Source: an uncultured Alphaproteobacteria bacterium (GTDB lineage Bacteria; Pseudomonadota; Alphaproteobacteria; HIMB59; GCA-002718135). From it: a DNA stretch of 64,000 nt. The position numbers were made by a program, and so were the translations under genes. This document shows, piece by piece, positions 2,524 through 61,746 of this stretch. Positions within the stretch are counted from its first letter, which is position 1; each line of letters begins with the position of its first letter. The stretch is taken from NCBI GenBank assembly GCA_902561355.1, contig CACEPG010000003.1, forward strand, positions 1-64,000, read 5' to 3'. The notes beneath the pieces are model-generated. The model ran no database searches and had not been told where the DNA came from. It saw only the letters and a program-made list of their open reading frames with translations.

Positions 2524-3366
2524 CTAAGCATTAAATATAAAGCCAACCCCGATAAAAAATAATATTCCTGATATTATACGCATATATCCTATTTTTTCTC
2601 TTAACAATATCAACCCTAGCAGTGATGCAAATATAATGCTAGATTCTCGCATCGAAGCTACAAGCCCTATTGGCTCATATTTCATTGACCAAATAATTAT
2701 GGCGTAGGCACTAAAAGAAATAATTGTTGCACATAATATTAAAAGTAATTCTTTAATTTTTACTTTGAATAATGATTCTTTATCAGTCAGGTATACATAA
2801 CCAATAGAAATCCATCCACCTAAAAAAAAATTCCATACAATGAATGTTGCGCTATTATCTACAGACCTTACACCAGCTCCATCAGAAAAAGCATATATAG
2901 AAATAACAAAAGCAATAAAAATAGAAATACCAATTTTTTTATAATTTATTTTATTATTAAAATTACTTACTGAAATTAAAACTAAAGCAAGACTTGCTAT
3001 TAAAATACCAATTATTCCAAAAAATGGAATTATTTCTTGTAAAAAAATTAAAGAAAAAATTGTAACAAAAATTGGTGCACATCCGCGCGCAACAGGATAA
3101 ATAAAAGTTAGATCTTCTCGATTGTACATAATGCCCAAGAGAATAAAATACAGGCTATGTAATAGGAATGAGCAAGTCAAATAAAACCAAGTTATACCTT
3201 CTGGCAAGGGGACAAAAAATATAATTGGAGTAAAAATAATACTTTGGAAAAATACTTTATAAGCAACTCCGACTAATGAATTATTAAGGGATTTAATAAT
3301 AATATTCCACAAGGCATGCAAAAAAGCAGCAAAAAAAATAAGTAAATATATTGAAGTACTTGTCAT
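2524..3366 (-). CDS. EamA/DMT-family membrane protein, phosphonate-associated type (phn_DUF6-like)
   Basis: A 280-residue, almost wholly hydrophobic protein with about ten membrane segments arranged as two EamA-like halves (FFAAFLHALWNIIIK near the N-terminus and MRESSIIFASLLGLILLREK near the C-terminus). Size and layout match the EamA-like proteins described as phosphonate-utilisation-associated membrane proteins (TIGR03340). It starts 45 bases from and divergent to the PhnZ-like gene at 3412, and lies upstream of the importer 1 operon on the same strand, separated from it by that operon's own promoter. It probably moves a small metabolite across the inner membrane, either an exporter or an importer. 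No substrate can be read from the sequence. The EamA call is secure and the phosphonate link is contextual. Confidence 0.75.
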   Translation of the reverse strand: MTSTSIYLLIFFAAFLHALWNIIIKSLNNSLVGVAYKVFFQSIIFTPIIFFVPLPEGITWFYLTCSFLLHSLYFILLGIMYNREDLTFIYPVARGCAPIFVTIFSLIFLQEIIPFFGIIGILIASLALVLISVSNFNNKINYKKIGISIFIAFVISIYAFSDGAGVRSVDNSATFIVWNFFLGGWISIGYVYLTDKESLFKVKIKELLLILCATIISFSAYAIIIWSMKYEPIGLVASMRESSIIFASLLGLILLREKIGYMRIISGILFFIGVGFIFNA

Positions 3367-3411: not shown

Positions 3412-3963
3412 ATGAAAAATAATATTGTAATAAAACTTCTAAATCTTTTAGAAAATAAAGGTAGCAATATTCAATATGGCAATGAAAATGTCACTCAGTT
3501 AGAACATGCCCTCCAATGTGCTGAACTAGCTGAGCAAAATAATTTTTCTAAAGAAATTATAACCGCAGCTTTACTGCATGATATTGGTCATTTATTATAT
3601 GATGGGAAGGATCCTATTCATGATGGAAAAGATGGCTATCACGAAAATTTAGGTGCAGAATATTTATCCACTTATTATGGTGAAGAAGTAACGCGACCTA
3701 TTAAAGCTCACGTTGCTTGTAAAAGATATTTATCAGCAGTTGAAGAGGGGTATTATGAAATTTTATCTGAGGCTTCAAAAATTTCTTTGAAAGCACAAGG
3801 AGGTCCTTTTACAAAAGAAGAGGCAGAAGAGTTTATAAAAAAACCATTTATGAAAGAAGCTGTTGAACTTCGTCGATTTGATGATGAGGCTAAAATTTTG
3901 AACAAAGAAACTCCGAATTTAGAACATTTTAAACATTATTTAGAAGAGTCATTAAAGAACTAA
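3412..3963 (+). CDS. phnZ: HD-domain oxygenase of the PhnZ type (C-P bond cleavage)
   Basis: A 183-residue HD protein. PhnZ is a mixed-valence di-iron oxygenase that splits the C-P bond of 2-amino-1-hydroxyethylphosphonate, giving glycine and phosphate. Candidate ligands are all present: H32 (VTQLEHALQ), H56-D57 with H60 (LLHDIGHLL), H77, H100 (AHVACKRYL) and D157 (RRFDD). Y22 and E25 lie 10 and 7 residues before H32, the spacing I recall for the lid residues Tyr24 and Glu27 of PhnZ. The motifs QGGPFTKEEA and RRFDDEAK are typical of the phosphonate-associated HD family (TIGR03276). It sits alone on the plus strand between the two importers. The usual partner, the 2-oxoglutarate hydroxylase PhnY, is not in the window. 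Members of this family act on different hydroxyphosphonates, so the exact substrate is open. Confidence 0.75.
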   Translation: MKNNIVIKLLNLLENKGSNIQYGNENVTQLEHALQCAELAEQNNFSKEIITAALLHDIGHLLYDGKDPIHDGKDGYHENLGAEYLSTYYGEEVTRPIKAHVACKRYLSAVEEGYYEILSEASKISLKAQGGPFTKEEAEEFIKKPFMKEAVELRRFDDEAKILNKETPNLEHFKHYLEESLKN

Positions 3964-3967
3964 AAAA

Positions 3968-3989
3968 AAGGGGATGTTAACATCCCCTT
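3968..3989 (-). terminator. intrinsic terminator between convergent phnZ-like and binding-protein genes
   Basis: A 9-bp perfect stem, AAGGGGATG (3968-3976) and CATCCCCTT (3981-3989), closes a TTAA loop. On the minus strand the stem runs into a U tract of about eight (the A run at 3962-3969), so it is a strong terminator for the binding-protein gene ending at 4015. On the plus strand it also follows the stop at 3963 directly, but with only a weak U tract. Confidence 0.8.
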
Positions 3990-4014: not shown

Positions 4015-5058
4015 TTAACTTTTTGGTTCAGTTTTCCCATCATATCTTTTTTTCCATTCAGCAACGATACGATCTTTATTTGCAGCAGCCCAAACAAAGT
4101 CATTATTAATTAACTTAGCTTGTACTTCATCATAAAAATCTGGCAGTTCTGGATCTTTCGTTACTTTTGATGGGTCAGCAATAATTGATTGTCTCTCTCC
4201 AAACAATTTCATACCATCGCCTAAAGTCCAATCCATTAATGTTTTAGCATCTTCCAGATTATCTGTGCCTTTCATTATTGCTACCACTTGCATTTCCCAA
4301 CCTATTCCTTCATCAGGAATGATCATATCAATTGGTGCACCAGCTTTGATAACTTTAATTGCTCTACCTGGCCAAGAAATACCAATGGCAAATTCACCTG
4401 AACCAGCTTGTTTACAAGGCTTAGAGCCAGAGTGAGTATACACACCTATATTTTCATGAAGAGCATCCATGTATTCCCATGCTTTATCTTCACCCCATAT
4501 TTGAATCCAACTAGATGCATCCAAAAAGCCTGTACCAGATGATGCAGGATTTGGCATAGATATATGACCCTTATAAATTGGATTTGTTAACTCAGCCCAA
4601 CTTGTAGGTTTTGGTAGACCATGTTTTTCTGCTTCTATTCTATTCCAACAAATACAACCAGCCCAACCATAGTTTCCAACCCAAGTAACAGGTGCAGTGT
4701 TATCAACATATCGTTGATCAATCGCATCCATTCCCTTTGGTGTATATTCTACAAACATACCTTCTGCTTCCATATTGAGAGCAACAGTAGCTGCCATTTC
4801 AAATAAAAAGTCTGCTTGAGGATTATCTTTTTCTGCCATCATTTTAGCAGCCATTGTACCTGTTGATTCACGCACAACATTTACTTTAATATCAGGATGT
4901 TGTTTTTGAAATTCATCCATGTAATGTTTTAAATTATCTGCATCAGTACTTGAGTAAACCAATAGTTCACCAGCATTTGATAACTGACTAAATGTTGATA
5001 AAGATAAAAAAATTAAAACAGTACTTAACGTTTTAAATGTTTTTTTTATTAAGAACAT
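4015..5058 (-). CDS. phnS2: periplasmic substrate-binding protein, 2-aminoethylphosphonate type (importer 2)
   Basis: A 347-residue paralogue of the binding protein at 1395-2414. It has a signal peptide (MFLIKKTFKTLSTVLIF... ending SNAG), then ELLVYSSTDADNLKHY, RESTGTMAAKMMAEKDNPQAD and THSGSKPCKQA. I choose the ATG at 5058 because GGGAGG lies a few bases upstream and the signal peptide begins there; a longer frame to 5121 would spoil the signal peptide. As in the first copy, the FbpA iron-binding tyrosine pair is missing (GISWPGRA). It is transcribed away from its presumed ATPase and permease genes (5221-8006) and ends at a strong terminator, so it is a single-gene unit. Divergence from copy 1 suggests a different or broader ligand, which is inference. 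Confidence 0.75.
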   Translation of the reverse strand: MFLIKKTFKTLSTVLIFLSLSTFSQLSNAGELLVYSSTDADNLKHYMDEFQKQHPDIKVNVVRESTGTMAAKMMAEKDNPQADFLFEMAATVALNMEAEGMFVEYTPKGMDAIDQRYVDNTAPVTWVGNYGWAGCICWNRIEAEKHGLPKPTSWAELTNPIYKGHISMPNPASSGTGFLDASSWIQIWGEDKAWEYMDALHENIGVYTHSGSKPCKQAGSGEFAIGISWPGRAIKVIKAGAPIDMIIPDEGIGWEMQVVAIMKGTDNLEDAKTLMDWTLGDGMKLFGERQSIIADPSKVTKDPELPDFYDEVQAKLINNDFVWAAANKDRIVAEWKKRYDGKTEPKS

Positions 5059-5102
5059 ATAATTACCTCCCGTTAAAATTTTACATTTATTAATTTTAAA
5101 TA

Positions 5103-5142
5103 TGACAATCATGTTAAGCATATATTAAAAATTTGTTAACAG
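5103..5142 (-). promoter_or_regulatory. Pho-box-like 11-bp repeat array upstream of binding protein 2
   Basis: Minus strand units start every 11 bases: CTGTTAA (5142-5136), TTTTTAA (5131-5125), TGCTTAA (5120-5114) and ATTGTCA (5109-5103). The period matches Pho boxes and the first unit is close to the classical CTGTCAT. The array lies in the intergenic region shared by the binding-protein gene (minus) and the ATPase gene (plus), so it could serve both. A clear -10 for the minus promoter is not obvious. Confidence 0.35.
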
Positions 5143-5220: not shown

Positions 5221-6294
5221 ATGCAGAATAATAACACATATCTTGAAGTTAAAGATTTATCGAAATCATTTGGAAATTTTGAAGCAATAAAAAATATTGA
5301 TATCAATATACAAGAAGGCGAATTTGTTTGCTTTCTTGGCCCTTCAGGTTGCGGCAAAACAACTTTACTAAGATGTATAGCGGGATTAGAGACTCAAAGT
5401 ACAGGATCTGTTATTCAAAAAAATATTAATATATCAAATGAGCCTCCATCAAATAGAGATTTTGGAATCGTCTTTCAGTCTTATGCTTTATTTCCAAATC
5501 TGTCTGTCTTTTCAAATATATCTTATGGTTTGATAAATAATAAATGGAAAAAAGCAGATATAAAAAAAAGAGTAGATGAATTATTAAGTTTAGTTAATTT
5601 AACTGAACATGCATTAAAATATCCAAGTCAGCTATCTGGTGGTGAGCAACAACGTGTAGCCTTAGCGAGAGCTTTAGCAACGTCACCAGGATTGTTGTTA
5701 TTAGATGAACCTTTATCTGCTTTGGATGCAAAGGTTAGAGTGTTTTTGAGAAAACAAATACGAGATTTGCAAAGAAAGCTTGGTGTAACAACTATTATGG
5801 TTACCCATGATCAAGAAGAAGCACAAACAATGGCGGATAGAATTTTCGTAATGAAAGATGGAGAAATAATTCAATCAGGAACACCAAGTGAAATTTATAC
5901 AAAAGCAAATTCTCCTTTTATAGCTTCTTTTATTGGTAGTATGAATTTTATCCCTGCGATTATTAATAGTTCAAACAAAGTAAAATGTAATCAAATAGAG
6001 ATAAATTGCGATATAGGAAATTTTAAAGCAAATGATTCTGTTCAATTAGCAATTAGACCTGAGGACATTCAGTTTAAGCAAAGCAATCAGGATGACAATA
6101 TGATTCCAGGAACAATTAAAGAAGTTGAGTTTTTAGGATCTTTTCAACGAGTGTATTTTGAAGTTAGGAATTTTACAGATGAATTAATTATAGTTGATGT
6201 TCCGAGTTCAACTGCAAGGAAAATTGAATTAGATATTAATAAAGAATTGAATTTATATTTTTCTAAAGAAGATGCTCGTATTTATTCAACATAA
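5221..6294 (+). CDS. phnT2: ABC transporter ATP-binding protein, PhnT2-like (importer 2)
   Basis: A 357-residue ATPase paralogous to the gene at 271-1332. Walker A GPSGCGKTT is at about 40-48, the Q-loop at FQSYALFPNLS, the signature LSGGEQQRVALARALATSPG and Walker B LLLLDEPLSALD follow, then a TOBE-like C-terminal domain (VQLAIRPEDIQF). It powers the permease encoded 8 bases downstream (6303). The start is the first in-frame ATG; no good ribosome binding site precedes it. The binding protein for this pair is the divergent gene at 4015-5058. Sequence alone cannot separate phosphonate, Fe3+ and related importer ATPases, so the substrate is inferred from the neighbourhood. Confidence 0.85.
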   Translation: MQNNNTYLEVKDLSKSFGNFEAIKNIDINIQEGEFVCFLGPSGCGKTTLLRCIAGLETQSTGSVIQKNINISNEPPSNRDFGIVFQSYALFPNLSVFSNISYGLINNKWKKADIKKRVDELLSLVNLTEHALKYPSQLSGGEQQRVALARALATSPGLLLLDEPLSALDAKVRVFLRKQIRDLQRKLGVTTIMVTHDQEEAQTMADRIFVMKDGEIIQSGTPSEIYTKANSPFIASFIGSMNFIPAIINSSNKVKCNQIEINCDIGNFKANDSVQLAIRPEDIQFKQSNQDDNMIPGTIKEVEFLGSFQRVYFEVRNFTDELIIVDVPSSTARKIELDINKELNLYFSKEDARIYST

Positions 6295-6302
6295 TTAGAT
6301 AT

Positions 6303-8006
6303 ATGAGTTTATTCAAATTTGCAGATATTCGTAGAGGTAAAGATTCAAGTGATCGAGTTGGGTTATTTATGCTCATATCCTATATTATTCTTTTTTTATT
6401 ATTTTTAGTTTTACCTCTAGGGGCTTTAATTTCTAAAAGCTTACAAAATAAAGATGGAGAATTTATAGGTCTTACAAACTATAATTTATATCTTCAAGAG
6501 CCAGCGTTATTTCAATCACTTTATAATAGTTTATTTGTCGCTATCTGTTCCACTGTTATAGTTGTTGTTTTGGCATTTTTATTTTCTTATGCCCTAACAA
6601 GAACTTGTATGCCTTTTAAAGGTTTTTTTAAATTAGTAGCTTTAATACCTTTATTAAGTCCATCCATCCTTGCTGCGATAGCTCTTGTATATTGGTTTGG
6701 TAATCAAGGTGTTTTAAAAGAAGTGTTGTTAGGAAAATCTATATACGGACCTATTGGTATAATTATGGCTTCTGTGTATTGGACTTTTCCGCATGCACTT
6801 ATAATTCTAACAACTTCTTTATCACTATCTGATTCGCGTTTGTATGAAGCGGCAGATGTTTTAAAAACATCTAAACTCAGAGCTTTTTTTACGATTACTA
6901 TTCCAGGAGCTAGGTATGGAATCATTAGTACGGCTTTTGTCATTTTTACTCAAGTGTTTACCGACTTTGGTGTTCCTAAAGTTATAGGAGGAAACTATAA
7001 TGTTTTAGCAACTGATATTTATAAAGAAGTTGTCGGGATGCAAAATTTTCAAATGGGCGCAGTCATCTCTATGGTACTATTAGTTCCTGCAATGATAGCT
7101 TTTTTTATTGATCGTTATTCAAGAAAAAAACAAATCTCTTTACTCACGGCTAGATCAGTTGTTTTCAAACCGAAGAAGCACTTTAAGGTTGATATGATCA
7201 TGCTTGGATTTTGTTCAGCCTTAGCATTAATCATCATATTAATGATAGGGATGGCACAATTTGGAGCAATAGTTAAATATTGGCCCTATAACTTAAACTT
7301 TACGTTAAAAAATTATGACTTCCAAGTAGCAGGACTTGGTTGGGATTCTTTTTATAATTCAGTTGAATTGTCATTTTATACAGCAATTTTTGGCACTATT
7401 ATTATTTTTGTTGGCTCCTACTTAATTGAAAAATTAAGAATTAATGAAGGATATAGAAATACAGTTCAATTTTTTGCACTTATGCCAATGGCTGTACCAG
7501 GGTTGGTATTAGGATTAGCTTATATATTTTTCTTTAATGCAAAAGATAATCCTCTAAATTTTATTTATGCAACAATGATTATCTTAGTTGTAAACACAAT
7601 TGTTCATTTCTATACAGTCTCTCATTTGACAGCGATTACTGCTTTAAAGCAAATGGATAAAGAATTTGAATCTGTTTCATTGTCTTTAAAAATTCCGATT
7701 TATAAAATGTTTTGGCGTGTAACCCTACCTGTTTGTCTACCACCTATTTTTGATGTTTCTATTTATTTATTTGTTAATGCGATGACTACCGTGTCCGGGG
7801 TAATCTTTCTTTATTCCTATGATACTACTCTTGCATCTGTGTCTGCTATTCATCTAGATGAGCAAGGAGAAGTTGCTAAAGCTGCTGCGATGGCGATGTT
7901 AATAGTTTATGTTTCTGTTGCTGTGAGACTTACCCATACAATTATTACAAAAAAAGTATTGCGTAAAACTCAAGCGTGGCGATACAATATTCTTGATACA
8001 AAATAA
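6303..8006 (+). CDS. phnU2: ABC transporter permease with two fused halves, PhnU2-like (importer 2)
   Basis: A 567-residue inner-membrane permease with about 12 membrane segments. It consists of two related halves, each with an EAA-type cytoplasmic loop (LYEAADVLKTSKLRAFFTITIPGARYG in the first; FESVSLSLKIPIYKMFWRVTLPV in the second). Fused-duplicate permeases of this length occur in the FbpB/AfuB and PhnU2 groups. The first hundred residues match the truncated permease at the left window edge. It follows its ATPase by 8 bases and precedes a phosphatase gene by 20 bases, so the three are probably co-transcribed. It probably forms the channel for phosphonate uptake; iron is the alternative substrate. 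Confidence 0.8.
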   Translation: MSLFKFADIRRGKDSSDRVGLFMLISYIILFLLFLVLPLGALISKSLQNKDGEFIGLTNYNLYLQEPALFQSLYNSLFVAICSTVIVVVLAFLFSYALTRTCMPFKGFFKLVALIPLLSPSILAAIALVYWFGNQGVLKEVLLGKSIYGPIGIIMASVYWTFPHALIILTTSLSLSDSRLYEAADVLKTSKLRAFFTITIPGARYGIISTAFVIFTQVFTDFGVPKVIGGNYNVLATDIYKEVVGMQNFQMGAVISMVLLVPAMIAFFIDRYSRKKQISLLTARSVVFKPKKHFKVDMIMLGFCSALALIIILMIGMAQFGAIVKYWPYNLNFTLKNYDFQVAGLGWDSFYNSVELSFYTAIFGTIIIFVGSYLIEKLRINEGYRNTVQFFALMPMAVPGLVLGLAYIFFFNAKDNPLNFIYATMIILVVNTIVHFYTVSHLTAITALKQMDKEFESVSLSLKIPIYKMFWRVTLPVCLPPIFDVSIYLFVNAMTTVSGVIFLYSYDTTLASVSAIHLDEQGEVAKAAAMAMLIVYVSVAVRLTHTIITKKVLRKTQAWRYNILDTK

Positions 8007-8026: not shown

Positions 8027-8554
8027 ATGGATAAATTGGCGTATGACTTTGTTCAACCTAAAGATGTTAAGGGAAAAATTTTTCTTACATGTTTCCCTGG
8101 AAGAAGAGGAACAGAAGTAACCTATAAAGAAAGCATTTTTTTAGAAGATTTAAATAACTTTAATAATCTAGATTGTAATACTGTTTTAAGTCTTGTTGAA
8201 GATTTAGAATTTGAAAAACTGTGTGATAAAAAAAATTTTGTTCGTTCTATATATGCTAAAAATTTAAAATGGATGCATATGCCTATTGAAGATTTAAAAG
8301 CACCTGATCGTCAATTTAATGAAAAATGGGAAACAACAAAAGTATTATTAAAAAATGATTTAATAGAAGGAAAAAATATAGTTATTCATTGCATGGGCGG
8401 AAAAGGACGTTCAGGAACTATCGCTGCGATTCTATTGATTGAATTTGGTGAAGATAATAAAAAAGCAATAGAGATAGTTAGAGAAAAAAGAAAAGGGGCA
8501 ATTGAAACAGAGGAACAGGAAAAATTTATTTTAAATTATAATAGAATTAAATAA
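8027..8554 (+). CDS. dual-specificity/tyrosine-type protein phosphatase-like protein
   Basis: A 175-residue cysteine phosphatase. The CX5R loop is HCMGGKGRSG with nucleophile C122 and R128, and a general-acid aspartate is probable at D89 (MPIEDLKAPD). The N-terminal half (GKIFLTCFPGRRG) resembles the CDKN3-like branch of dual-specificity phosphatases. It follows the importer 2 permease by 20 bases on the same strand and so is likely part of the phosphonate uptake operon. It overlaps the end of the convergent pit gene by 8 bases. It could release phosphate from a phosphonate- or phosphate-ester metabolite, or act on a protein; nothing in the sequence decides between these. The catalytic assignment is firm and the pathway role is inferred. 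Confidence 0.75.
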   Translation: MDKLAYDFVQPKDVKGKIFLTCFPGRRGTEVTYKESIFLEDLNNFNNLDCNTVLSLVEDLEFEKLCDKKNFVRSIYAKNLKWMHMPIEDLKAPDRQFNEKWETTKVLLKNDLIEGKNIVIHCMGGKGRSGTIAAILLIEFGEDNKKAIEIVREKRKGAIETEEQEKFILNYNRIK

Positions 8555-9599
8555 AAACACTTAAGTTAAAAATATTTTGAAGAATAAAAAGTAAAAACAT
8601 TGAAATTAGCGCTGCAATAATTGGCAGTGTAAACCAACCAATTGTAATTCTCCCCGCTATAGACCACTGCACTTCTTTACCGCCTTTTAATAAACCAATT
8701 CCAATAACAGCACCGACAACAGCCTGTGAGCTTGAAACGGGAACCAAGGGAATAGAAGGTAAATTAATTGACTGCAAAAAATTACTAATACCTTGAGAGG
8801 CAAATAAAAATAAAACGATAGAATGGGAGATAACAACAATAAAAGCGGCAACAGGTGACATCTTTAATAAATCGTTACCCACAGTGAACATAACTTTTTT
8901 TGAATAGGTAAAAACACCAACTGCAATAGCTAATCCCCCAAGTAAAAATAATTGCTCCTTTGAGCTAAAAACAAAAAAACTAGAAATAGAAATATCGGTA
9001 AACGGCGATATAGGAACAAATACACCCATCACGTTAGCAATATTGTTTGCCCCTAAACTGTATGCACCAAAGGCTCCTGCTAATAGCAAAGCTGTTCGTG
9101 TATATGCATCTAGTCGTAGAATATGAAGCTTTCTTTTCAAAATAAAATTTTTTGTAAATGTAAAAAACCCCATAGCGATTATTCCTGCAATGACTGGACA
9201 TAATACCCACGTGCCTAAAATTGTAATGAGAACTTTTATATTAGTTGCTGATCCAGTGTATAAATTCCATCCAACAATAGCGCCAACAATTGCTTGCGTT
9301 GTAGACACAGGTAAGCCTGCTTTCGTCATTAGATAAACCGAAATGCCTGCAGCAATACAAGCGGCAAAAGCACCAGGCAGTGCATTGATGGCACCAAGTT
9401 TACCTAATGTTTCCGTTGTTCCCGCCCCGCTAATGATGGCGCCTAATATAACAAAGATACTACAGATGATAGCAGCAGTTTTAAAACGCACCATTCGTGT
9501 TCCAACTGCTGTACCAAAAACATTAGCGGCATCATTTGCCCCTAAAGACCACCCAAGAAATAATCCACCTAAGAGAAAAATAATGATGGAAATGTCCAT
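8547..9599 (-). CDS. pit: PiT-family inorganic phosphate transporter
   Basis: A 350-residue membrane protein with the two PiT signature repeats, LGWSLGANDAANVFGTAVG near the N-terminus and YSLGANNIANVMGVFVP in the middle, and about ten membrane segments. It imports phosphate with a cation. It begins 6 bases after the DUF47 gene, the common accessory partner of low-affinity Pit transporters, and forms an operon with it. Its 3' end overlaps the convergent phosphatase gene. Association with a Pho-box-like element upstream of the partner gene and with the phosphonate genes fits a role in recovering phosphate under limitation. Confidence 0.9.
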   Translation of the reverse strand: MDISIIIFLLGGLFLGWSLGANDAANVFGTAVGTRMVRFKTAAIICSIFVILGAIISGAGTTETLGKLGAINALPGAFAACIAAGISVYLMTKAGLPVSTTQAIVGAIVGWNLYTGSATNIKVLITILGTWVLCPVIAGIIAMGFFTFTKNFILKRKLHILRLDAYTRTALLLAGAFGAYSLGANNIANVMGVFVPISPFTDISISSFFVFSSKEQLFLLGGLAIAVGVFTYSKKVMFTVGNDLLKMSPVAAFIVVISHSIVLFLFASQGISNFLQSINLPSIPLVPVSSSQAVVGAVIGIGLLKGGKEVQWSIAGRITIGWFTLPIIAALISMFLLFILQNIFNLSVFI

Positions 9600-9605
9600 T
9601 AGTTA

Positions 9606-10268
9606 TTAAACGGATCTTTTAATTGCATAGATCTGAACTTCATCAGCAATATCTTCTGCTTGATCACAAATGCGATCGATTTTTTCAACAAAATATCGAA
9701 GATGCATTTTTTGATCTAAAGGAAGTTTTGAATCAAAAATTTTTCTTGCAAGCGCACTAAACTTTATATCAGATTCTTTTTCATAAAACGTAACTTTATG
9801 TCCATTATCTCGTACGGTTTTAATATCACGAAAAAAAGATCGTACCGTTAAACATAAAGATTCAACACAATTAACAACTGTATCTGTTAACTCTATTAAA
9901 TCTTGATGAAACTCTTTTGGAAAATTTGGTTTTTGGATTGAGAAGTGATAACAGTTGCCCTGGTACATTCCAATTAATTCATCCAAATGTTCCAGCAACC
10001 TCAAAACATCACTTCGCGCATCAGGTATAAGAGTTTCCTCATACAATGTATGCTCTACTTCTTTGGTAATTTTATCTGCTTTACTCTCCATTTCTTTAAC
10101 TTTTTCAACCATTTCATTGAACTGGCCGTTTGCAGAATGGTGTAAATAGGTTGGAATAATATTTTTAAATACCAATCCTACCTCAGAGAGAATGTCGACA
10201 AATTCATCAATTTCACGCTCAAGCTTTTTAGTATCACCAAATAAAGAACTAGTTTTTAATCCAAACAT
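9606..10268 (-). CDS. DUF47 / PhoU-like accessory protein of the Pit transporter
   Basis: A 220-residue, wholly helical-looking protein of the DUF47 (PhoU-related) family, with charged amphipathic stretches such as FVDILSEVGLVFKNIIPTYLHH and AEDIADEVQIYAIKRSV near the ends. Acidic clusters (KMHLRYFVEKIDRICDQAEDIADE) are typical of PhoU-type metal-binding helices. DUF47 genes usually sit directly before pit, as here (6-base gap), and are thought to adjust transport activity. The start ATG at 10268 has no clear Shine-Dalgarno. A Pho-box-like repeat lies 40 bases upstream. Confidence 0.85.
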   Translation of the reverse strand: MFGLKTSSLFGDTKKLEREIDEFVDILSEVGLVFKNIIPTYLHHSANGQFNEMVEKVKEMESKADKITKEVEHTLYEETLIPDARSDVLRLLEHLDELIGMYQGNCYHFSIQKPNFPKEFHQDLIELTDTVVNCVESLCLTVRSFFRDIKTVRDNGHKVTFYEKESDIKFSALARKIFDSKLPLDQKMHLRYFVEKIDRICDQAEDIADEVQIYAIKRSV

Positions 10269-60822: not shown

Positions 60823-61746
60823 ATGAAATTTAATTTAGATAATCTGTATCAAATTGAAAGTGGCGCATCTCATAAAAAAATTTATCGATTTAAAAATCAA
60901 AATAAAGGAAAAGTAGTTGTAGATTTTTCCTATAATCACGAGGATTACTTAGCTTTTTTAGAAGTTAACAATTTTTTATCAAGTATAAATATATCTGTTC
61001 CTAAAATATTTGATGCTGATCATACTAAAAATATAATTTTTATGGAAGATTTTGGTGATATTAGATATGATAAATTAATAAATAGCATTTATTTAAAAGA
61101 AATTTTGATAAATGCTGTAAATTCCTTAATAGAAATTCAAAATACACAAAAACCAATAATAAATAATATTTTAAAACAATATGACTTTTCTGCTTTTAAA
61201 ATAGAGATAGCTGAATTTGTTGATTTCTATTTCCCTATAAACAATATTTCTAATGATATAGCTCATGAATTCTTTAATATATGGAGTCAAGAATTTAAGA
61301 ATATAAATTTTAAATTTGATTCTTTTGTTCATAAAGATTTTGAACTAATCAATTTAATGTATCTCCCAAAAAGAAATGATCATTTAAAGTGTGGAATACT
61401 TGATTTTCAAAATGCATGTATCGGTTTTTCTGGATGGGATCTTTTTTCTCTTCTTGAAAATCCAAGAATATATTTTGATGATAAATATAATGACGAATTG
61501 TTAAAATATTTTTTTAGCAAAACTAAACAAAATATTCCTTTTAATGAATTTTTTTTTCAATATTACTTTCTTAATACGGCAAGACAAACAAGAATTATTG
61601 GCAGATGGATAAATTTAGATAAAAAAAATAAAAATAATTATTATTCAAATTATCTTAATGTGACACTTAAAAGACTTAAAAAAAGTTTATTTAAACTTCA
61701 AAATAAAAAATTATCTAAATTATATGATACAATAATAGTTAAATGA
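60823..61746 (+). CDS. amgK: aminoglycoside phosphotransferase-fold sugar kinase, AmgK-like
   Basis: A 307-residue APH-family kinase. The catalytic loop HKDFELIN (H-x-D-x4-N) and metal motif GILDFQNACIGFSGWDLFSLL are present. AmgK phosphorylates the anomeric position of N-acetylmuramate or GlcNAc for muropeptide recycling. Assignment rests on the pairing with the MurU-like gene, which overlaps by 4 bases, and on the tsaE-amgK-murU order seen in related genomes. The family call is firm and the substrate is inferred. Confidence 0.78.
   Translation: MKFNLDNLYQIESGASHKKIYRFKNQNKGKVVVDFSYNHEDYLAFLEVNNFLSSINISVPKIFDADHTKNIIFMEDFGDIRYDKLINSIYLKEILINAVNSLIEIQNTQKPIINNILKQYDFSAFKIEIAEFVDFYFPINNISNDIAHEFFNIWSQEFKNINFKFDSFVHKDFELINLMYLPKRNDHLKCGILDFQNACIGFSGWDLFSLLENPRIYFDDKYNDELLKYFFSKTKQNIPFNEFFFQYYFLNTARQTRIIGRWINLDKKNKNNYYSNYLNVTLKRLKKSLFKLQNKKLSKLYDTIIVK

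Follow-up and report, generated by a model that had tools for sequence, protein, structure and literature searches.

How does a gene for a PhnZ-type oxygenase come to stand without the hydroxylase that normally supplies its substrate? The question is raised by an open reading frame at positions 3412-3963 of the 64,000-nucleotide stretch of DNA analysed here (the window), which forms the start of an 82,286-base contig (C3) from the genome of an uncultured alphaproteobacterium, 67.8% complete as assembled. The initial annotation had described its product as a PhnZ-like enzyme without a PhnY partner nearby, and had offered two ways out of the puzzle, either a distant gene or direct use of an environmental hydroxyphosphonate. 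Of the two, the second is better supported: the enzyme more likely works directly on a hydroxyphosphonate taken up from outside than on the product of a hydroxylase encoded far away. The name PhnY is itself ambiguous, as the PhnY encoded in the corresponding locus of related genomes is a phosphonoacetaldehyde dehydrogenase and not the dioxygenase, which is referred to here as PhnY*.

The reading frame runs on the forward strand from ATG to stop and encodes 183 amino acids, and the opposite strand of the same segment contains many stops. It is a real gene under purifying selection, since a protein 91% identical to its product is encoded in the MAG MarineAlpha5_Bin9 and since, in a DNA comparison with L003, a relative at 91% identity, codon positions 1/2/3 differ 13/3/44 times, with 37 of the changed codons synonymous and 17 not. 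Sequence matches to the TmpB structure 6NPA (E=3.9e-36, 43% identity) and the PhnZ structure 4MLM (E=3.3e-30, 37% identity), each over more than 170 residues, extend from residue 4-6 to residue 177-181 and are far beyond chance. When the protein is aligned with PhnZ and TmpB, the residues singled out in the initial annotation fall on homologous positions: H32, H56, D57, H60, H77, H100 and D157 correspond to H34, H58, D59, H62, H80, H104 and D161 of PhnZ, and Y22 and E25 to its Y24 and E27. The alignment and the matches to both structures thus bear out di-iron ligands at PhnZ spacing. All seven of the first set are homologous to PhnZ residues, but only six of them make up the ligand motif; H60 is presumably an extra conserved histidine rather than a metal ligand. 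In PhnZ/TmpB-type oxygenases the ligands form the six-residue motif H...HD...H...H...D, and access to the active site is controlled by a Y..E loop (PMC8177086); the window oxygenase has this motif at homologous positions and the Tyr-x-x-Glu gate ahead of the first histidine. Compared with TmpB and with a dozen relatives of other bacterial origin, the ligands, H60 and the gate are nearly invariant, the exceptions being one sequence that departs at E25 and one at H60. Because PhnZ, TmpB and nearly all relatives have them in common, these residues identify the type of enzyme and not its substrate, and the tyrosine-glutamate pair, correctly recognized as the counterpart of the PhnZ gate, is not diagnostic of what the enzyme acts on. 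A single-sequence AlphaFold model reached a pLDDT of 49, too low to build on, and the HD fold is predicted from the 37-43% identity to solved structures. By homology, the assignment as a full-length PhnZ/TmpB-type HD-domain mixed-valent di-iron oxygenase of the Phn-HD (TIGR03276) clade, with the corresponding chemistry, is well supported.

The genomic context, which the initial annotation missed, places this enzyme within a locus for the transport of 2-aminoethylphosphonate (AEP). The oxygenase gene is flanked on both sides by PhnS2-PhnT2-PhnU2 AEP transporter cassettes. To its left, 45 bp away and divergently oriented, lies a gene for an EamA/DMT membrane protein (2524-3366, reverse strand), whose best match is the phosphonate-associated family TIGR03340 (phn_DUF6; 132.8 bits, under the 288 cut-off). 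It is followed on the reverse strand by a PhnS2-type substrate-binding protein (1395-2414; TIGR03261, 507 bits, over cut-off), a PhnT2-type ATPase (271-1332; TIGR03265, 494 bits, over cut-off) and the N-terminal fragment of a PhnU2-type permease (1-262), which is cut by the contig end and whose start is near-identical to that of the full permease in locus L113. To the right, a terminator-like inverted repeat (3968-3989, a consensus match only) separates the oxygenase gene from a convergent gene for a second PhnS2-type binding protein (4015-5121, reverse strand; 410 bits, over cut-off), and a second PhnT2-type ATPase (5221-6294; 488 bits, over cut-off) and a PhnU2-type permease (6303-8006; TIGR03262, 763 bits, over cut-off) follow on the forward strand. 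Beyond this cassette are a dual-specificity-phosphatase-like protein (8027-8554, forward strand), a PiT/PHO4-family phosphate transporter (8547-9599, reverse strand) conserved in the neighbourhood and, paired with the latter, a PhoU-like (DUF47) protein (9606-10268, reverse strand). As seen in the window and in loci L037-L056 and L111-L113, nearly all relatives encode the dual-specificity-phosphatase-like protein directly beside the oxygenase gene, as most of them do, or just past the AEP transporter cassette, accompanied by the PiT transporter and the PhoU-like protein. To our knowledge, no role in phosphonate use has been described for this small protein.

The position of the contig edge matters for what the window can reveal about its own locus. 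Window base 1 is also the first base of the contig; it falls within the transporter permease, 3.4 kb from the oxygenase gene, so the region further left is simply unassembled on this contig. The same arrangement in the close relative G102 runs on with a full permease and an FAD oxidoreductase gene. Two further close relatives, G109 and G005, have the locus broken at similar places, with separate contigs that start within the permease and continue with the FAD oxidoreductase and PhnW genes, followed in G109 by those for PhnY dehydrogenase and PhnA. In neither G109 nor G005 were overlapping contig ends found that would connect the separated pieces of the locus; the continuation past the break is therefore read from gene order and from three genomes (G001, G002 and G103) that carry permease, FAD oxidoreductase and PhnW on one contig. 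By analogy with these relatives, the phnW, phnA and phnY dehydrogenase genes of the window's genome would be located beyond the contig edge; PhnW and PhnA were not found in its incomplete assembly, and none of its aldehyde dehydrogenases reaches the PhnY-dehydrogenase cut-off. The FAD protein scores 590 bits in G109 and 572 bits for the G008 orthologue against TIGR03329 (putative aminophosphonate oxidoreductase), where the cut-off is 632.8. G001 and G103 carry small-molecule-kinase-like genes between the FAD aminophosphonate oxidoreductase gene and phnW (L107, 8830-9699; L108, 7795-8667), and the one in L108 scores 149 bits against NF041256, for which the cut-off is 357.

Comparison across 110 genomes of the same family ties the oxygenase to AEP catabolism as well as to AEP transport. 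Orthologues of the oxygenase occur in 94 genomes, a count that includes G031 and G027, where the gene is partial or split, and PhnW exceeds its cut-off in 91 of the 110. In 82 of the 94 the oxygenase gene and phnW are divergent and only 105-111 bp apart; among the other oxygenase genomes, six have both on the same contig at a distance of 1.5-12 kb, three have them on different contigs and in three PhnW was not found. The phnW loci also encode PhnA (464 bits) and the phosphonoacetaldehyde dehydrogenase PhnY (795 bits), both over cut-off. Just two of the genomes with PhnW above its cut-off lack the oxygenase. One of them, G002, has a contig that ends within the transporter cassette, short of the expected oxygenase position. 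The other, G103, is the only PhnW genome in which the locus is assembled and the oxygenase absent; it carries PbfA (633.6 bits, cut-off 525) together with PhnW and PhnX, and no other of the 110 genomes has PbfA. Given that PbfA is the ammonia-lyase of (R)-1-hydroxy-2-aminoethylphosphonate (HAEP), its presence in place of the oxygenase points to HAEP as the substrate, albeit from a single genome. Throughout the family, nearly all phnW loci also have, directly beside phnW, a gene for a protein of about 210 amino acids that weakly resembles ureidoglycolate lyase (cluster 9, loci L041-L056 and L105-L111, e.g. L051, 11316-11948). We know of no such gene among the accessory genes of phosphonate use.

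Taken as a whole, the enzyme is probably a PhnZ-type accessory oxygenase for imported (R)-1-hydroxy-phosphonate, chiefly (R)-HAEP. Such a compound would enter ready-made through the AEP transporters, and the oxygenase would use O2 to cleave the C-P bond of (R)-HAEP, yielding glycine and phosphate. The oxygenase would form a side branch of an AEP locus composed of the AEP transporters, the FAD aminophosphonate oxidoreductase, PhnW, PhnY dehydrogenase and PhnA. Because its substrate would arrive ready-made through the transporters, the cell would need no PhnY* of its own. We infer the enzymatic activity, the identity of the substrate and the uptake of HAEP by these particular transporters.

A related reading keeps the chemistry and changes the main substrate to another 1-hydroxyphosphonate, such as N-methylated HAEP, hydroxymethylphosphonate or an unknown marine compound. 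PhnZ clades differ in substrate (PMC8316502, PMC10574752), as do its subclades (PMC8316502), and in our tree the window oxygenase and its family orthologues form one clade (support 100/99), separate from TmpB (99/97) and from PhnZ, although the tree has several long branches and its deeper order is uncertain. The FAD aminophosphonate oxidoreductase in the locus of the relatives would likewise suit modified aminophosphonates. However, the linkage to AEP transporters and PhnW and the exchange for PbfA point to HAEP, and the protein scores low against the hydroxymethylphosphonate dioxygenase model NF052439 (166.2 bits, cut-off 300) and the TmpB equivalog NF049941 (159.9 bits, cut-off 300). It also falls far below the GmPhnZ equivalog cut-off. 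The best NCBIfam family is TIGR03276, 'phosphonate degradation HD-domain oxygenase', which it matches at 206 bits, under the cut-off of 214.6, and the link of Phn-HD proteins to phosphonate catabolism and transport genes is present for the window gene and its relatives. We therefore regard a different main substrate as unlikely, if worth keeping in mind. A broader version, in which the Phn-HD clade uses an undescribed marine 1-hydroxyphosphonate other than HAEP, imported via the duplicated AEP-type transporter, strikes us as improbable; were it correct, the divergent pairing with phnW, which is almost universal, would mark that compound as an important source of phosphorus.

PhnZ-like genes elsewhere show both kinds of neighbourhood. 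Among plasmid relatives, a hydroxylase is annotated next to the gene in Dietzia (PhyH), Labrenzia (TauD, which is a TmpA over cut-off) and Aliiroseovarius (TauD), whereas none is annotated near it in Nostoc, Variovorax SRS16, Asticcacaulis and Comamonas, where C-P lyase genes, or phnX with an FAD oxidoreductase gene, are nearby. A Pseudomonas phage record (OQ658365.1) contains an unannotated Phn-HD-like gene (61100-61573, L080) near its attR end, which may be host DNA at a prophage border; when phage carriage was considered, one weak viral contig match was the only other case. The window's genome encodes a second HD protein (contig C2; L002, 1378-1947) with a match to the PDB PhnZ at E=2e-6 and 43 bits to TIGR03276, and similar matches occur in many genomes of the family. 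We rejected it as a PhnZ paralogue, its similarity being limited to the H...HD segment without the Y..E pair.

If the hydroxylase partner were encoded far away, either as one of the PhyH- or TauD-family genes on other contigs or within the unassembled third of the genome, the oxygenase would belong to a split PhnY*-PhnZ or TmpA-TmpB pathway. The genome does contain candidates, namely four PhyH genes (contigs C13, C5, C1 and C37) and three TauD genes (C14, C5 and C2), and its incompleteness leaves room for more. Yet against the PhnY-type model NF052437 none of the four PhyH genes exceeds 34 bits, which led us to reject them as a distant PhnY*, and none of the 110 family genomes has a PhnY-type hydroxylase over the cut-off of this model, the best score being 64.7 bits. 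As a yardstick, the Dietzia PhyH gene, which neighbours a PhnZ-like one, scores 260.8 bits, itself under the cut-off of 500. Two of the TauD genes come closer, with 288-292 bits to TmpA against a cut-off of 400, but the TauD genes' own or orthologous neighbourhoods, away from phosphonate genes, contain a creatinase-like M24 peptidase, aldehyde dehydrogenases and a Rieske oxygenase, and look like quaternary-amine metabolism; we rejected these two as a distant TmpA. No PhyH or TauD hydroxylase was found on the whole 82-kb contig, so the observation that no partner lies nearby holds for all of it, with the qualification that the contig starts 3.4 kb from the gene, and none was found in 21 oxygenase-gene neighbourhoods. 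The genome search for PhnY or TmpA proposed in the initial annotation likewise returned none over cut-off in the 67.8% assembled. Within the family, TmpA exceeds its cut-off in G108 alone, a genome without an oxygenase match. A distant partner is accordingly improbable.

The TmpA-like gene of G108 (contig C38; L095, 8436-9587; 491 bits, over the curated cut-off) stands beside formate-dehydrogenase-like genes and represents the converse of the window, a hydroxylase that is itself an orphan. In G005 (contig C134, L098), a TmpA/gamma-butyrobetaine-dioxygenase-like gene (1121-2209), which reaches 328 bits against TmpA where the cut-off is 400, lies about 200 bp ahead of a gene for a second, distant HD protein (2412-2867) in which H...HD...H...H...D is seemingly kept and Y..E is absent; the two may form a further hydroxylase/HD-oxygenase pair.

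That the protein is a metal-dependent HD phosphohydrolase is very hard to credit: the HD superfamily consists mostly of hydrolases and some bimetallic hydrolases have the motif in common (PMC11203657), but the protein is homologous over its whole length to two enzymes proven to be oxygenases, shares their Y..E gate and lies in a phosphonate gene context, all of which speaks against it.

The arrangement inferred here for the accessory oxygenase is a known one, since PhnZ-like genes in phnWX or phnWAY clusters without PhnY* have been published (PMC8154272, PMC11203657). In complete genomes, phnZ occurs in 24 of 75 phnWAY and 15 of 1,186 phnWX clusters, and PbfA and PhnZ are never found in one phnW cluster (PMC8154272). 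TIGR03276 proteins beside PhnW or PhnX without PhnY* have been noted in pseudomonads and Achromobacter, where HAEP was put forward as a predicted substrate and their function was described as unresolved (PMC11203657), and in marine surveys phnZ is often found with phnA or phnX (PMC9381506). The missing partner is thus not odd, because enzymes of this type mostly supplement the ordinary AEP pathway; with an AEP transport and catabolism locus around the gene, a contig edge beside it and published clusters that lack PhnY*, the puzzle seen in the initial annotation falls away. With our analysis, a widespread uncultured marine lineage joins the carriers of a PhnZ-type oxygenase as an accessory of AEP breakdown without PhnY*, and the notion that hydroxylated AEP truly serves as a nutrient in seawater gains support. 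The analysis also cautions that counts of phnZ genes are not evidence of a PhnY*-PhnZ pathway.

Among known systems, the closest likeness is to the Phn-HD clade found beside phnWX or phnWAY without PhnY*, with which the window gene agrees in clade (by best HMM), residues and type of neighbours. It differs in its score, which at 206 bits stays under the cut-off of 214.6, in its two duplicated AEP transporters and in its uncultured marine alphaproteobacterial host. With PhnZ of bacterium HF130_AEPn_1 (4MLM), which has a PhnY* partner, it would share the fold, by homology, and it has the six ligands, the extra histidine and the Tyr/Glu gate in common, but it is only 37% identical, stands on a separate branch of the tree and lacks such a partner. 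TmpB of Leisingera caerulea (6NPA), whose partner is TmpA, is 43% identical and has the same ligands and gate; in contrast, the window oxygenase falls into a separate clade without TmpA and has Gln/Leu instead of Met/Phe near the metal site (PhnZ positions 31/63). Whereas the two-oxygenase PhnY*-PhnZ and TmpA-TmpB systems have a dedicated, usually adjacent 2-oxoglutarate hydroxylase, the window gene has none on its contig. PbfA, an unrelated PLP enzyme that replaces the oxygenase in G103, presumably serves the same end as the window oxygenase, that of making the phosphorus of HAEP available.
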